Assembly (NCBI GenBank): GCA_030693065.1 | Contig: JAUYBL010000013.1 | Coordinates: forward strand, 124,001 to 188,000 | Reading direction: 5' to 3' | Length of the DNA: 64,000 nt | From: Methylococcaceae bacterium | GTDB lineage: Bacteria > Pseudomonadota > Gammaproteobacteria > Methylococcales > Methylomonadaceae | Position numbers and translations under genes: made by a program | Shown here: positions 3,847 to 9,156 of the stretch, one piece after another | Layout of the letters: each line of letters starts with the position of its first letter | Position numbering within the stretch: the stretch's first letter is position 1 | Notes under the pieces: generated by a model | Database searches by the model: none | Told to the model about the DNA's origin: nothing | What the model saw: only the letters and a program-made list of their open reading frames with translations

Positions 3847-3961
3847 AATACCCCCTCATGATTCACATCATTTATGTCTTATTATTTTTAAGTGAATTTT
3901 GATAATACTCTTTTCAAACTAAAAAAACATCCCTCGGATTACTGGTCAAGCGGGTCAAAAG

Positions 3962-3990
3962 TTGCGTTAGAAAAAACTTCATCGTATACT
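3962..3990 (+). promoter_or_regulatory. Sigma-70 type promoter of the pqq operon
   Basis: TTGCGT (3962-3967), a 17-base spacer and TATACT (3985-3990). The predicted start is near 3997, giving a leader of about 57 bases before pqqA. The region 3847-4053 holds no other gene. Confidence 0.65.
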
Positions 3991-4053
3991 CACAAGCGGC
4001 TTACTTGATCAAGCTGGCACATAACTCAAAAAGTACTTCTGGAGGTTTTATTT

Positions 4054-4128
4054 ATGAAATGGGAAACACCAAGCTACACTGACCTGCGTTTCGGTTTTGA
4101 AGTAACAATGTACATCTATAACCGTTAA
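4054..4128 (+). CDS. pqqA: PqqA, PQQ precursor peptide
   Basis: A 24-codon gene: MKWETPSYTDLRFGFEVTMY and then IYNR. Glu16 and Tyr20 are in the conserved E-V-T-M-Y context; PqqE joins these two side chains and both become the PQQ skeleton. The ribosome-binding site GGAGG at 4041 is strong, as expected for a peptide needed in excess. It opens the operon and is followed by a terminator-like hairpin. Confidence 0.97.
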   Translation: MKWETPSYTDLRFGFEVTMYIYNR

Positions 4129-4150
4129 TTTCTGCGGTCAAGATTAAGAA

Positions 4151-4178
4151 AAGGGGCTGTCAAAGGCCCCTTTTTTTT
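4151..4178 (+). terminator. Terminator/attenuator between pqqA and pqqB
   Basis: AAGGGGC (4151-4157) pairs with GCCCCTT (4166-4172) and runs into eight T residues. Placed between pqqA and pqqB, it should release most transcripts after pqqA and give a high ratio of peptide to enzymes, with read-through or a second promoter serving pqqB onward. Confidence 0.8.
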
Positions 4179-4234
4179 GCCGGAAAAAAAATATTCCCTT
4201 ATCATTCCGCCACCCATTCTTTCGGAATAACTAA

Positions 4235-5146
4235 ATGAAAATTAGAGTACTAGGTTCAGGCGCAGGTGGCGGCTTTCCGCAATGGAACTGTAACTGCCAT
4301 AATTGCCATCGCATACGTCACGGTGAAATGCGTGGTACAGCCCGCACTCAATCATCAATTGCTGTCAGTACCGACAATAAAAACTGGCTACTATTTAATA
4401 CCTCCCCAGATATTCGCGCGCAACTGGAAGCCTTTCCGGCCATTCAGCCTAAAGACGGCATTCGCGATACCGGCATTAAAGCCATCATGCTCATCGACAG
4501 CCAGATTGACCACACCACCGGCTTGTTAATGTTGCGTGAAGGCAAACCGCTGGATATTTACTGCACAGAGATGGTGAGACAAGATCTGACCACAGGCTTT
4601 CCGCTGTTTAACATGCTTAAAGACTATTGCACGGTCAATCATCACCCAGTGCCGGTTGATGGCAGCAGCTTTACTATTCCAGCCATCGATGATTTACGCT
4701 TTTATACTCAAGCGTTAAAAAGCAAAGCGCCGCCCTATTCGCCGCATCGCCATGACCCGCATGAAGGCGACAACATCGGCGTCATCATCGAACAAATATC
4801 CACCGGCAAAAAAGTGTTTTATTCACCCGGCCTGGGTGAAATAGAACCGCATGTCATGGCCGCCATGCAAGACGTTGATTGCTTATTGGTCGACGGCACC
4901 TTCTGGACCGATGATGAAATGGTCACTATGGGCATCAGTCAAAAACGCGCTCGTGAAATCGGCCATTTGCCGCAATCGGGCGAAGGCGGCATGATTGAAG
5001 TTCTTAACGGCGTTCCTAATGCACGCAAGATATTGATTCATATCAACAACACCAATCCAATTTTGGACGATGATTCCGAGCAGCGCAAAATACTCAATGC
5101 TGCCGGCATTGAAGTCGCTTACGACGGTTTAGAAATTGATTTGTAA
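4235..5146 (+). CDS. pqqB: PqqB, metallo-beta-lactamase-fold PQQ synthesis protein
   Basis: The 303-residue protein has the PqqB signature start [20 protein letters not shown] with the cysteine cluster CNCHNC, and the metallo-beta-lactamase-fold segment [10 protein letters not shown]. Its length matches the family. PqqB acts after peptide cross-linking; published work assigns it an iron-dependent hydroxylation of the tyrosine ring, although it was earlier proposed as a PQQ carrier. It is cytoplasmic. The next gene, pqqC, starts 10 bases after the stop. Confidence 0.97.
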
Positions 5147-5156
5147 AGGACATCCC

Positions 5157-5888
5157 ATGAGCACACCTGATAACACCCCTTGGACTAAAGAAGAATTTGA
5201 AGCTGCATTGCGCGGCATGGAAAAGTATTACCACATTCATCATCCTTACCACACATTGATGAATGAAGGAAAACTCACCAAAGAACAAATCCAAGGCTGG
5301 GTCGCTAATCGCTTTTATTACCAGGTATGCATTCCTATCAAGGATGCCAACATTTTAGCCAACTGCCCGGATCGTGAAACTCGAGCCAAATGGATTCAGC
5401 GCATCTTAGATCACGACGGCCACCCTGGCGATCCAGGCGGTATTGAGGCTTGGATACAATTGGGCATAGCAGTCGGTTTAACACGCGAAGACATCACCTC
5501 ATTAAAGCATGTGCTGCCGGGTGTGCGTTTTGCAGTCGATGCGTACGTTAATTTTGCCCGCCGCGCAGAATGGCATGAAGCCGCCAGCTCGTCATTGACT
5601 GAACTGTTTGCACCAAAAATTCACCAACAACGCCTGGATAACTGGCCAGAACATTATCCCTGGGTCGATAAAGAAGGTTATAGCTATTTCCGTAAACGTC
5701 TGACCGAAGCTCGTCGCGATGTTGAACATGGCTTGGCGATTACCCTGGACTGGTACAAAACCCGCGAGCAACAAGATCGCATGGTGGAAATCCTTAAATT
5801 CAAACTGGATGTACTCTGGACCATGGCCGACGCGATGTATTTAGCTTACATTGTCAAGCAACCGCCTTATTTTAATATCGAGAAATAG
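5157..5888 (+). CDS. pqqC: PqqC, pyrroloquinoline-quinone synthase
   Basis: The 243-residue protein starting [19 protein letters not shown] fits PqqC, a helical bundle oxidase that closes the last ring and removes eight electrons to give PQQ. Conserved segments visible are [16 protein letters not shown], the RFYYQ motif and [14 protein letters not shown]. An in-frame ATG at 5136 lies inside pqqB; 5157 is chosen because AAGGA precedes it and the family begins here. The C terminus is complete. Confidence 0.97.
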
Positions 5889-5933
5889 TGGCTGATGGCT
5901 AATCTAACAACTCAGTCGTAGATATCTGGTCAA

Positions 5934-6242
5934 ATGTTTACAATAGATTGGATAAAGCAAGCCGCTCAAAATAACAACTATCGCTATTCAAAACATGGTG
6001 ACCAAGAGCGGCAAAACGACAATTTAAGTTTGATCGAAGTGAAGCAAGCTTTGCTTAATGGTATTGTTATCGAACACTATGCTGACACTGGACGAGGAAT
6101 TAGTTGTTTGGTTGCCGGATTCACCGAAAACGGCATTCCGATACATGTAGTGTGTGGAACGATGGGAGAAACATTGGTTATCATTACCGTTTACATTCCG
6201 ATGCCACCCAAGTTTAAAAACCCTTTCGAGAGAGGTAATTGA
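5934..6242 (+). CDS. DUF4258 domain protein (putative RelE-like toxin half)
   Basis: This 102-residue protein matches the DUF4258 pattern: YRYSKHGDQERQ near the start, then an ALLNGIVIEHYADTGRGISCLV segment and a C-terminal strand LVIITVYIP ahead of a short proline-rich tail. DUF4258 is a small fold related to RelE-type toxins and is often paired with a YgiT-type zinc finger protein, as here, where the partner ATG comes one base after this stop. The pair is inserted between pqqC (45 bases upstream) and pqqD on the same strand. The toxin role is an inference from family and pairing. Confidence 0.8.
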   Translation: MFTIDWIKQAAQNNNYRYSKHGDQERQNDNLSLIEVKQALLNGIVIEHYADTGRGISCLVAGFTENGIPIHVVCGTMGETLVIITVYIPMPPKFKNPFERGN

Positions 6243-6243
6243 T

Positions 6244-6501
6244 ATGTCAGAACAATGCGTATTTTGTGGACACAAACACCTTATCGACAAAAACACACGC
6301 TACATTTACCAAAAGGATCAACAAATGCTAGTGGTCGATAACGTTCCCTGTTTGGAATGTGCATTTTGCGGAGAACAATACTTTGATGCCTTAGTTTTAC
6401 ACCAAATTGAAAACGACTACTTGGCTATTAGCCAACATCAAAAACAGCCGGCACGCACTATGCAAGTTGCAGTTGAGGAATTTTCTAATTTACTGTCATA
6501 A
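6244..6501 (+). CDS. YgiT-type zinc finger protein (putative antitoxin half)
   Basis: From the ATG at 6244 the product has 85 residues with two CxxC pairs, CVFCG near residue 5 and CAFCGE near residue 41, typical of the N-terminal zinc domain of MqsA/YgiT. The helix-turn-helix half of MqsA is absent, so it resembles the short YgiT-type family linked to DUF4258 proteins. An upstream in-frame ATG at 6154 lies within the preceding gene and is unlikely. The stop is 17 bases before pqqD. It probably binds and neutralises the DUF4258 protein; whether it binds DNA is unknown. Confidence 0.78.
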   Translation: MSEQCVFCGHKHLIDKNTRYIYQKDQQMLVVDNVPCLECAFCGEQYFDALVLHQIENDYLAISQHQKQPARTMQVAVEEFSNLLS

Positions 6502-6518
6502 CATTTAATCTACCCATA

Positions 6519-6791
6519 ATGACCATTAACCCAGACCAGCTCATCAAATTTTCCCCGATGCACCGCCTGCAATGGGAAGAAGCCCAGCAAAAAGACGTGA
6601 TTCTCTATCCTGAAGGCATGGTCGAGCTCAATCAAAGCTCGGCAGAAATCTTAAAACTGTGTGACGGCAGCCGTAAACTCGCGCAAATCGTCAGCGATCT
6701 GGAAGAGAAATTTGCCACCTCCGGGCTCACCAACGACATTACCGCTTTCTTAGAGGTCGCTTTAAAAAATGGCTGGATCCAACAACATTAA
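6519..6791 (+). CDS. pqqD: PqqD, peptide chaperone of PQQ synthesis
   Basis: The 90-residue protein has the PqqD pattern: [36 protein letters not shown] and a C-terminal winged-helix-like segment. PqqD binds PqqA and presents it to PqqE (the RiPP recognition element fold). Its 3' end overlaps pqqE by 23 bases, which points to translational coupling of the two interacting proteins. Confidence 0.96.
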
Positions 6792-7905
6792 CATCACCTC
6801 GCCGCGCTGGTTACTGGCTGAGCTCACCTACGCCTGCCCGTTACAGTGCCCTTATTGCTCGAACCCGATTGATTATGCGAATTATCAATCGGAATTAGAT
6901 ACCGAGGACTGGAAGCGCGTACTCACGCAAGCCCGCAAAATGGGCGCAGTGCAACTGGGTTTTTCCGGCGGCGAACCCTTAACGCGTATAGACTTGGCGG
7001 AATTGGTCAAACATGCCAAAGACTTGGGTTATTACTCCAACCTGATCACCTCCGGCTACGGTCTGACGGAAGAAAGAATCATCCAGCTGAAAGAAGCGGG
7101 GCTTGATCATATTCAAGTCAGTATCCAGGCCAGCACCCAGGAATTAAACGACCATATCGCCGGCACAGCGTCTTTTCAAACCAAAAAAGAAGTCGCACAT
7201 CTGGTTAAAAAACACGGCTATCCGATGGTGTTATGCGTGGTCATTCACCGCGAAAACATCCACCAAATGCCGGAAATATTGGCGATGGCTGAGGAATTGG
7301 GTGCGGATTACCTGGAATTGGCGAATACCCAATATTACGGCTGGGCGCATGCCAACCGCGATTTATTGCTGCCCACCAAAGAACAATTCGAGGAAGCCGA
7401 AGCTCTCGCCCAAGCCTTCAAAGAAAAAGTTGCCGGTAAAATGAAGATTTATTACGTCGTGCCGGATCTATATGAAGACCGCCCCAAAGCCTGTATGAAC
7501 GGCTGGGGAACCACATTCTTGACGATTGCACCGGACGGCGTTGCCCTACCTTGCCATTCCGCGCGTGACTTGCCGGGCCTGGATTGCCCGAATGTCAAAG
7601 ATTTCAGCATTGAGGAAATCTGGAATGAATCCAAAGCCTTCAATTTTTTCAGAGGCTTTGAATGGATGCAGGAGCCTTGTCGCAGCTGCGATGAAAAAGA
7701 AAAAGACTTTGGCGGCTGCCGCTGCCAAGCTTATTTGTTAACCGGCGACATGTACAGCACCGACCCGGTCTGCAGTAAGTCTCCAAGGCGTGAAGTTGTT
7801 CAAGAAGCCATTGATTCAGCAAAAGCCAGTGCCGATTCTGCCAACGAAAAACCGTTGATATTTCGTAATAGTAAGAATTCCAAAATACTGTCAAAAATCG
7901 AATAG
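6769..7905 (+). CDS. pqqE: PqqE, radical SAM enzyme cross-linking PqqA
   Basis: The 378-residue protein carries the radical SAM cluster motif at Cys23, Cys27 and Cys30 (ACPLQCPYC), the SAM glycine patch FSGGEPL, and a C-terminal SPASM region with [17 protein letters not shown] and a later VCSKSP, which bind auxiliary Fe-S clusters. It forms the C-C bond between Glu16 and Tyr20 of PqqA. It is the last pqq gene here; pqqF/pqqG-type proteases are not in the window and must be elsewhere. The last 40 residues are polar and poorly conserved. Confidence 0.97.
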
Positions 7906-8042
7906 AGAGCTATTGCCGATAAAATTTCCTGTCGGCAGTCGGCATCACGCCTCTGAACGATAACTGGTCTTATTATAAATAATTGGGTGTCAATTTTTCG
8001 TACAACCAAGCCATCATTAATTAAAGTAAATCCATAAGAAGC

Positions 8043-8259
8043 TATGGGGAACCTCGAAAAACCCATTCCGCTCATGGTTCGACAAGCTCTCGGCAACTGC
8101 TCCTGCGTTGCCCTACCTTCTGCATGCCCGATGAAACGGGGCAGGCTCTCCTTGCAGTCGACCACGAACGGAACATATTGATTTGTAAAGTACCGTTCGC
8201 ATTTATGACCTGTGGGTACTGAGTTTATCGAAGGGCATGGTTTTTCGAGGTTCCCTATG
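8043..8259. mobile_element. MITE-like element, copy 1 (209 bp plus TATG duplication)
   Basis: The element spans 8047-8255. Its ends are inverted repeats, GGGAACCTCGAAAAACC and its complement, and it is flanked by the 4-bp direct repeat TATG (8043-8046, 8256-8259). There is no transposase frame inside. It shares most of its length with copy 2 at 8920-9152. The gap 7906-8352 after pqqE holds this element and otherwise nothing recognisable beyond a weak hairpin near 7913-7938. Confidence 0.85.
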
Positions 8260-8352
8260 GTGTTGAGGCAGGGCACCAGACGTAATTCTGATTTGTCCAT
8301 GCAATTTTTTTAAGAGTCGAGCCATTCGTTAAGAAGCTCTTGATCAAGCCTG

Positions 8353-8898
8353 TTATTTTGGCTTTCGATGCCTTTGACCGGAAAAGCCAATTTTTGCCTC
8401 GTTATGATTCTGGTCAGGCGTTGGGGGAGAGAGTATTTGCTCTGGCTGGGGCGAATAATGCGGCTTACGGTTGTTTTCGCGGTATGGTGAATTTGACCAA
8501 TACCACTGGTTAAACGCTGGTGCAGCTTCTATTGGAATGGCATTTTGACGTTGTTGTGCGGCAAGCGCTTGTTGCTCTTCAGCAATGACGGTGCGTCGTT
8601 GCAACACCAAACTTTCTTGGCGATCCGACTCGATTTTTCTTTGTTTTTCTAATTCATTGCGTGCAGCTTCTTTGATGGCTTGCTCTTCCTTCCACGCCTG
8701 TAATTTTGCTTTGGCTTCTTCAGCGCGTTGCGGATCGATTAGTTTTATTTCGACAATATTCTGGGACGCGGCGGTCTTTGGGCAGGGTGAAGCTTGATAG
8801 ATAACTTTGCCTGACGCCAGTTCGCACTTGAAGACTGCGGCATTAGCTGAGTAAGACAATGCCATCGACAGTATAAAAATGTGTTTGGTAATTCCCAT
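8353..8898 (-). CDS. DUF4124 domain protein, exported
   Basis: A 181-residue protein with a signal peptide at residues 1-20 (cleavage after SYSANA) and a DUF4124 motif directly after it (AVFKCELASGKVIYQASPCP), which holds a conserved pair of cysteines. Residues 55-110 form a charged, probably coiled-coil helix, and the tail is proline, asparagine and tyrosine rich. DUF4124 proteins are periplasmic or envelope proteins of unknown role in Proteobacteria. The gene lies between two copies of the MITE-like element, and copy 2 starts 21 bases upstream of its ATG, so its promoter must lie in or beyond that element. Confidence 0.82.
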   Translation of the reverse strand: MGITKHIFILSMALSYSANAAVFKCELASGKVIYQASPCPKTAASQNIVEIKLIDPQRAEEAKAKLQAWKEEQAIKEAARNELEKQRKIESDRQESLVLQRRTVIAEEQQALAAQQRQNAIPIEAAPAFNQWYWSNSPYRENNRKPHYSPQPEQILSPPTPDQNHNEAKIGFSGQRHRKPK

Positions 8899-8915
8899 TA
8901 TTGACTCTTTTCATT

Positions 8916-9156
8916 TAAGGGGAGCCTCGAAAAACCCACTCCGTTCATGGTTCGACAAGCTCTCGGCAACTGCTCCTTGCGTTGCTCTACCTCCTCCATC
9001 CTTGGAGTCGTACCTACTGCATGCCCCATGAAACGGGGCAGGCTCTCCATGCAGTCGACCACGAACGGAATTTATTAATTTATAAAACACCGTTCGCATT
9101 TATGCCCTGTGGGTACTGAGTTTATCGAAGTGCAGGGTTTTTCGAGGTTCCCTAAG
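8916..9156. mobile_element. MITE-like element, copy 2 (233 bp plus TAAG duplication)
   Basis: The element spans 8920-9152 with ends GGGAGCCTCGAAAAACCC and the complement of GGGAACCTCGAAAAACCC (17 of 18 match), and a 4-bp direct repeat TAAG (8916-8919, 9153-9156). It carries about 24 bases more than copy 1, in the CTACC region near 8990-9015. No transposase is encoded. Bases 9157-9256 beyond it hold nothing I can name. Confidence 0.85.

Follow-up and report, generated by a model that had tools for sequence, protein, structure and literature searches.

Type II toxin-antitoxin (TA) modules of the textbook kind are self-regulating, by means of an antitoxin that binds DNA. In MqsR-MqsA (YgiU-YgiT), the described system most similar to the locus reported here, the zinc domain of MqsA holds the toxin, and an XRE helix-turn-helix (HTH) domain of the same protein binds the module's own promoter.

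In the passages of PMC2701414 that concern these families, YgiT is a zinc finger combined with an HTH, and Uma2 is described as a cassette-forming family, likely a solo toxin. DUF4258 (PF14076), a family of the RelE/ParE (BECR) superfamily, is placed among the BECR-fold type II toxins in the relevant sections of PMC11980606, where 17 fusions of DUF4258 to MqsA are counted and the target of DUF4258 is listed as unknown. In an excerpt of PMC4963859, the antitoxin listed for a DUF4258 toxin is HicB. TA modules inserted in operons are already known (PMC6504116, in the part that deals with them), and the pair described below is likewise found inside an operon. A literature search returned no work dealing with DUF4258-YgiT cassettes within operons and none dealing with TA genes of pqq operons, and the portions covered of a methanotroph transcription-unit paper, PMC12403871, hold no pqq transcript data.

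The locus

The window, by which we mean the whole stretch of 64,000 nucleotides analysed, comes from a Methylococcaceae bacterium and contains a pqq operon on its plus strand. The operon starts with a reading frame for 24 amino acids at 4054..4128, named pqqA by eye from its sequence and position, and continues with pqqB (4235..5146; TIGR02108, 418.2 bits), pqqC (5157..5888; TIGR02111, 371.7 bits), pqqD (6519..6791; TIGR03859, 98.8 bits) and pqqE (6769..7905, overlapping pqqD; TIGR02109, 538.1 bits); PqqB, PqqC, PqqD and PqqE each score above the respective NCBIfam cut-off. Between pqqC and pqqD, at 5934-6501 and on the same strand, the open reading frames include a gene for a DUF4258 protein of 102 amino acids (5934..6242) followed by a gene for a YgiT-type zinc finger protein of 85 amino acids (6244..6501). 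This arrangement is as the sequence-only reading had described it, with 45 bases between the pqqC stop (5888) and the toxin ATG (5934), 1 base between the toxin stop (6242) and the antitoxin ATG (6244), and 17 bases between the antitoxin stop (6501) and the pqqD ATG (6519). The toxin-first order is shared with MqsR-MqsA and differs from the antitoxin-toxin order given as usual for DUF4258 in the same sections of PMC11980606.

The base composition of the pair is foreign compared to its pqq neighbours, which we count in favour of a mobile cassette: G+C content is 0.405 in the toxin gene and 0.392 in the antitoxin gene, against 0.47-0.49 in pqqB-pqqE, and the corresponding GC3 values are 0.40 and 0.38 against 0.48-0.59. 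The DUF4258 gene is the only match to its family in the 3.96 Mb genome. The same genome also encodes a canonical MqsR-MqsA module (MqsR at G000:C38:21131-21409, locus L223, with an antitoxin of 133 amino acids), so that the two systems could engage in cross-talk.

Our preferred interpretation, to which we assign a probability of roughly two in three, is that the pair is a mobile and minimal MqsRA-like type II TA cassette, devoid of autoregulation by the route known for MqsA and dependent on host operons for its transcription.

Two other features of the region were recorded. Between pqqA and pqqB, at 4140-4180, there is a G+C-rich hairpin followed by a T run (seen by eye on the plus strand; the terminator-site search lists it on the minus strand), which is possibly an attenuator that allows excess of pqqA. 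Two open reading frames, at about 7990-8300 and at 8898-9099, have translations with a run of similar words in common (SLPRF.GHA, EQLPRACRTM); this points to an intergenic element that is repeated downstream of pqqE.

The predicted toxin

Both proteins belong to the toxin-antitoxin-like families that the sequence-only reading had named. The toxin matches PF14076 with 68.6 bits (cut-off 25, E = 5.7e-19) and is thus a member of DUF4258. The MqsR family, PF15723, is not among its Pfam matches at E of 1, and comparison of the toxin profile with MqsR from sister genomes gives an hhalign probability of 4.9; sequence homology between DUF4258 and MqsR is not detectable by this route, so that the link between them rests on the predicted fold. 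Searches for solved relatives by sequence gave two matches for the toxin, at chance level only, and none for the antitoxin.

The AlphaFold2 model of the toxin, built from an alignment of 43 sequences (A2), has mean pLDDT of 94.4. Its top VIA match is chain D of 3hi2, with Z of 10.1 and rmsd of 2.4 over 83 aligned residues, and the next match stands at 7.7; BrnT (6.6), YoeB, RelE and other toxins of the same fold are found at Z of 5 to 7.7. The toxin is therefore predicted to have the MqsR version of the BECR fold, and it would probably act as an RNase. The catalytic Tyr81 of MqsR may correspond to the invariant His71 of the toxin, as judged only from the end points of the structural alignment (model residue 85 to chain residue 95) and from the MqsR residues given in the pertinent part of PMC9636575.

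The predicted antitoxin

The antitoxin matches the YgiT_finger family TIGR03831 with 47.4 bits (cut-off 20.2, E = 1.7e-12), and C5, C8, C39 and C42, which form the CxxC...CxxC signature shared with the zinc domain of MqsA, are invariant in 27 aligned antitoxins. The model based on this alignment (A1, 27 sequences) has pLDDT of 90.5, and its top VIA match is chain A of 3hi2 (rmsd of 3.0, 64 aligned residues), with Z of 7.4, a value below the safe level for a fold match taken alone; the three top rows are all MqsA, the other two with Z of 6.2 and 6.1, and the next, unrelated entry has Z of 3.8. At the sequence level, the antitoxin profile aligns with MqsA of sister genomes over 51 zinc-domain columns (E = 2.6e-5). 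Each of the two models, obtained from its own alignment, thus independently matches a different partner in the solved MqsR-MqsA(N) complex, 3hi2; we assign chain D to MqsR and chain A to MqsA on the basis of chain lengths, the listing itself naming only the complex. The predicted combination of an MqsR fold with an MqsA N-domain fold agrees with the earlier suggestion of a pair similar to mRNA interferases.

What sets the pair apart from MqsR-MqsA, besides a toxin of DUF4258 instead of PF15723, is the absence of the C-terminal domain of the antitoxin. MqsA proteins of the sister genomes continue into this domain (for example, to 133 amino acids in total), while the antitoxin of the window ends at 85 amino acids, all 27 aligned antitoxins are contained within 85 columns, and PF15731 is matched only over positions 2-63 of 131, under its cut-off. 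A C-terminal XRE HTH is not present in the window antitoxin or in its 26 aligned relatives. The antitoxin would then consist of a zinc-binding domain only, its HTH either lost or never possessed, and would be unable to regulate its own transcription in the manner of MqsA. Neutralisation by such a protein is plausible, because the complex used to demonstrate a block of RNA binding by MqsR contained only residues 1-76 of MqsA (PMC9636575, the section on the complex).

Transcription of the pair

The region 3850-8400 contains four promoter-like sites, compared to 6.9 expected from shuffling. Only one of them, a weak sigma-70-like match (9 of 12 positions) on the plus strand at 5851..5878, is a candidate promoter for the pair; it lies within the 3' end of pqqC and ends 55 bp upstream of the toxin ATG. 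The same search listed no terminator-like site inside 5934-6501. The pair is without a visible transcription unit of its own, as the sequence-only reading had also held. Together with the missing HTH, the lack of a clear promoter makes dependence on the host operon most likely: the cassette would survive by landing co-directionally in operons, here between pqqC and pqqD, and by being transcribed along with them, presumably by read-through.

The position of the pair relative to its upstream neighbours was scored with a simple ORF caller (39 loci given, 38 scored, L083 skipped). The upstream gene is on the same strand in 28 of 37 cases, and both on the same strand and at most 100 bp away in 20 of 37; for canonical MqsRA at 20 loci of the family, the respective counts are 11/20 and 4/20. 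The difference in tightly spaced co-directional upstream genes is modest (20/37 vs 4/20, Fisher p = 0.02; 17/33, p = 0.04, after removal of three near-duplicates and of the window). For ordinary long genes of these loci, tight embedding is seen in 49 of 93 cases (53%), compared to 54% for the pair, so these numbers show a non-autonomous position and not a preference for operons. The pair is placed like an average operon member and MqsRA is placed more like an autonomous unit, which fits a promoterless cassette without proving it.

An autonomous TA module that merely sits inside an operon, regulated in some other way and transcribed from a promoter of its own within the 3' end of pqqC, would account for the weak match at 5851-5878 and for the 9 of 37 relatives that lack a co-directional upstream gene; in these nine, the upstream neighbour is opposed in direction, so that a promoter of their own, or else silence, must be assumed for some copies. 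We consider such a module rather unlikely, given that promoter-like sites in the region are fewer than expected by chance, that the antitoxin has no HTH with which to autoregulate, and that in several loci (L060, L065, L066, L078, L219 and L256) the pair overlaps or almost touches the upstream gene, with distances of -13 to 10 bp.

Occurrence in pqq operons of the family

Matches at E of 1e-10 or better were found in 21 of 237 genomes of the family. Comparison of related pqq operons, proposed in the sequence-only reading, finds the pair in the pqq operon of 12 of these 21 genomes (the window genome G000, and G001, G015, G036, G039, G049, G059, G094, G134, G145, G148 and G216), and finds it missing from most pqq operons. 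In all 11 pqq-linked genomes that have pqqD on the contig, the pair or its remnant directly precedes pqqD; in G134, the contig ends within the antitoxin gene. A thirteenth pqq-linked copy, L085, is a remnant. Nine of the 13 copies look intact and at least four are broken, i.e., those in G134 (one stop codon in the toxin), G049 (shortened toxin), G059 and L085.

No match to the pair was found in G014, G064 and G041, which belong to the same genus as the window genome. G014 and G064 are the two closest genomes in which PqqC is matched; their pqqC and pqqD lie 43 bp and 34 bp apart, respectively, and comparison of the window with these empty sites reveals no readable insertion scar; PqqC itself was not found in G041, a genome that is 75% complete. 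The absence of the pair from both closest genomes with pqqC agrees with the earlier proposal; the "recent insertion" of that proposal is not datable for the window copy, since its silent sites are saturated relative to every other copy (see below).

Patchy presence and repeated decay in relatives would also be expected if the pair were a passenger in decay, without a function in this genome today. This is improbable for the window copy, in which both frames are open and the family signatures are intact. In comparisons with other pqq copies, moreover, dN/dS is 0.05-0.09 where dS is finite, although dS is near saturation, and such values indicate purifying selection.

Relatives outside pqq operons

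The nine family matches that are not linked to pqq include a pair between ftsK and radC in G050, pairs in G195 and G177 within what by eye is a type I restriction cluster, and a pair next to a phage integrase in G170; in G030, G144 and G217 the copy is broken or only partial, and the match in G154 is a distant relative. In the latter genome (L222, 4451-4970), the distant DUF4258 gene is immediately followed by a gene for a small protein with CxxC motifs, so the pairing of toxin and zinc finger may extend past the subfamily studied here.

Thirty relatives were collected from genomes of named species, some of them within the family, with taxa ranging from Nitrospirae to Chloroflexi and Spirochaetia as titled in the records. 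Near-full-length toxin and antitoxin genes in toxin-antitoxin order are present in 26 of the 30 loci, one of which, L072, has a stop in the toxin; the other four are L082 (toxin in two frames), L083 (broken toxin, no antitoxin match), L084 (toxin fragment) and the remnant L085. Identity to the window toxin is 55-80% over the matched part (57-80% in the toxin alignment A2), and identity of antitoxins outside methanotrophs is 37-52%, rising to 70% in one Gallionella record. Family searches identified the flanking genes at several sites: the beta subunit of glycyl-tRNA synthetase and heptose phosphatase (glyS and gmhB, L060), formate dehydrogenase alpha and formate-THF ligase (L062), a reductase similar to 2-hydroxyacyl-CoA dehydratase and its activase (L065), and a TIM-barrel protein and a short-chain dehydrogenase (L066). 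Ten of 398 sampled genomes from the phylum, including the genome of the window, have a match at E of 1e-20. The same unit is thus found in unrelated genomes and at unrelated sites, and the pair is a mobile two-gene module. No carrier of the pair was found among plasmids, phages and viral contigs, and PADLOC defence annotation gave no match.

These relatives bear directly on the suggestion, made in the sequence-only reading, that the pair regulates pqq mRNA. In the version that we considered, the pair has been domesticated and the toxin cleaves pqq transcripts, tuning PqqC, PqqD and PqqE. Its position directly before pqqD in every methanotroph pqq operon where both are on one contig, and the purifying selection noted above, would be in line with this role. 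The presence of this cassette in operons of other kinds (among them those of glyS, ftsK and formate dehydrogenase), its absence from the closest genomes and from most pqq operons, and the broken state of at least four pqq-linked copies make such domestication highly improbable, and we rejected a PQQ-specific regulator on account of the occurrence in unrelated operons. Relatives in unrelated operons point instead to a hitchhiker on the host promoter, in agreement with the cassette interpretation favoured here; its upkeep would be selfish or addictive.

Exchange between pqq operons

In the extreme case, third-position differences between G094 and G039 are 0.08 in the pair and 0.34 in the pqq genes (p = 1e-14), and between G094 and G145 they are 0.10 and 0.32. 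In most comparisons among the nine pqq-linked copies other than that of the window, these included, the pair diverges less at third positions than its pqq flanks do; G015-G134 and G134-G216 are exceptions, with about equal values, and several other comparisons show weak differences. Identity jumps abruptly some 11 bp upstream of the toxin ATG and drops past the antitoxin. Judging from these sequence comparisons, the cassette has recently been exchanged between methanotroph pqq operons. On the pqqCDE tree (77 rows, G036 being excluded because its pqqC is on another contig), presence of the pair requires at least 8 changes. A single ancestral insertion followed by simple descent is not supported, on account of these changes and of the silent-site divergence of the pair, which is below that of the flanks in most comparisons.

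The copy in the window is different. Its third positions are 0.44-0.55 from all others, about as far as those of its pqq genes, and with silent sites saturated in this way the insertion into this operon is not datable. In the tree of the pair, the window copy is not the nearest kin of the other pqq copies, and a single clade is not rejected (p = 0.40); one origin or two would both be compatible with these sequences.

The pqqC-pqqD junction

Insertions in pqq operons were surveyed in a 121-genome sample that left out the window and later finds, with the pqqB-pqqC and pqqD-pqqE junctions as controls. More than 300 bp separate pqqC from pqqD in 36 of 73 operons with both genes on one strand, compared to 13 of 93 for pqqB-pqqC and none of 73 for pqqD-pqqE, where the genes overlap or touch. 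The junction between pqqC and pqqD is a hotspot for insertions into methanotroph pqq operons. Its cargo in the 36 operons comprises Uma2 (27), the DUF4258-YgiT pair or its remains (6), NlpE (4), DUF29 (3) and DUF2442 (3), with HicA, PDDEXK_2 and others seen once each and nothing recognised in L147. All recognised cargo is on the operon strand, only plus-strand reading frames having been queried; three long minus-strand frames picked by hand in the hotspot had no Pfam match. Uma2 (PF05685) shares the hotspot with the pair, is absent from the junction in the window, and differs from the pair in fold class (PD-(D/E)XK) and in having no antitoxin.

Among the junctions in the range L086-L195 there are rows of up to six extra small genes, mostly Uma2 (e.g., L107, L120 and L176). 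The 13 long pqqB-pqqC junctions, of 387-2058 bp, are those in L095, L105, L109, L117, L125, L138, L167, L168, L172, L174, L178, L182 and L186.

Implications

We tentatively put forward a broader proposal, which goes well beyond the main interpretation and is correspondingly less probable. The pair may represent a class of TA cassettes that have shed both the promoter and the operator-binding domain. Such an operon hitchhiker would leave its dose to be set by the host promoter, would move as an exact two-gene unit, bounded some 11 bp upstream of the toxin start, and would tie addiction to an operon that the host is unable to shut down (pqq in a methanotroph, for example); the pqqC-pqqD junction would then be a natural trap for promoterless selfish genes, including Uma2, DUF29, DUF2442, HicA and DUF4258-YgiT.

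A widespread MqsRA-like module without a DNA-binding domain raises the question of whether a TA pair can persist when a foreign operon determines its dose. The DUF4258 toxins, listed with an unknown target, gain a tentative partner and a tentative fold. For methanotrophs, the pqq operon emerges as a gathering place of small selfish genes inside a pathway that is needed for methanol oxidation.
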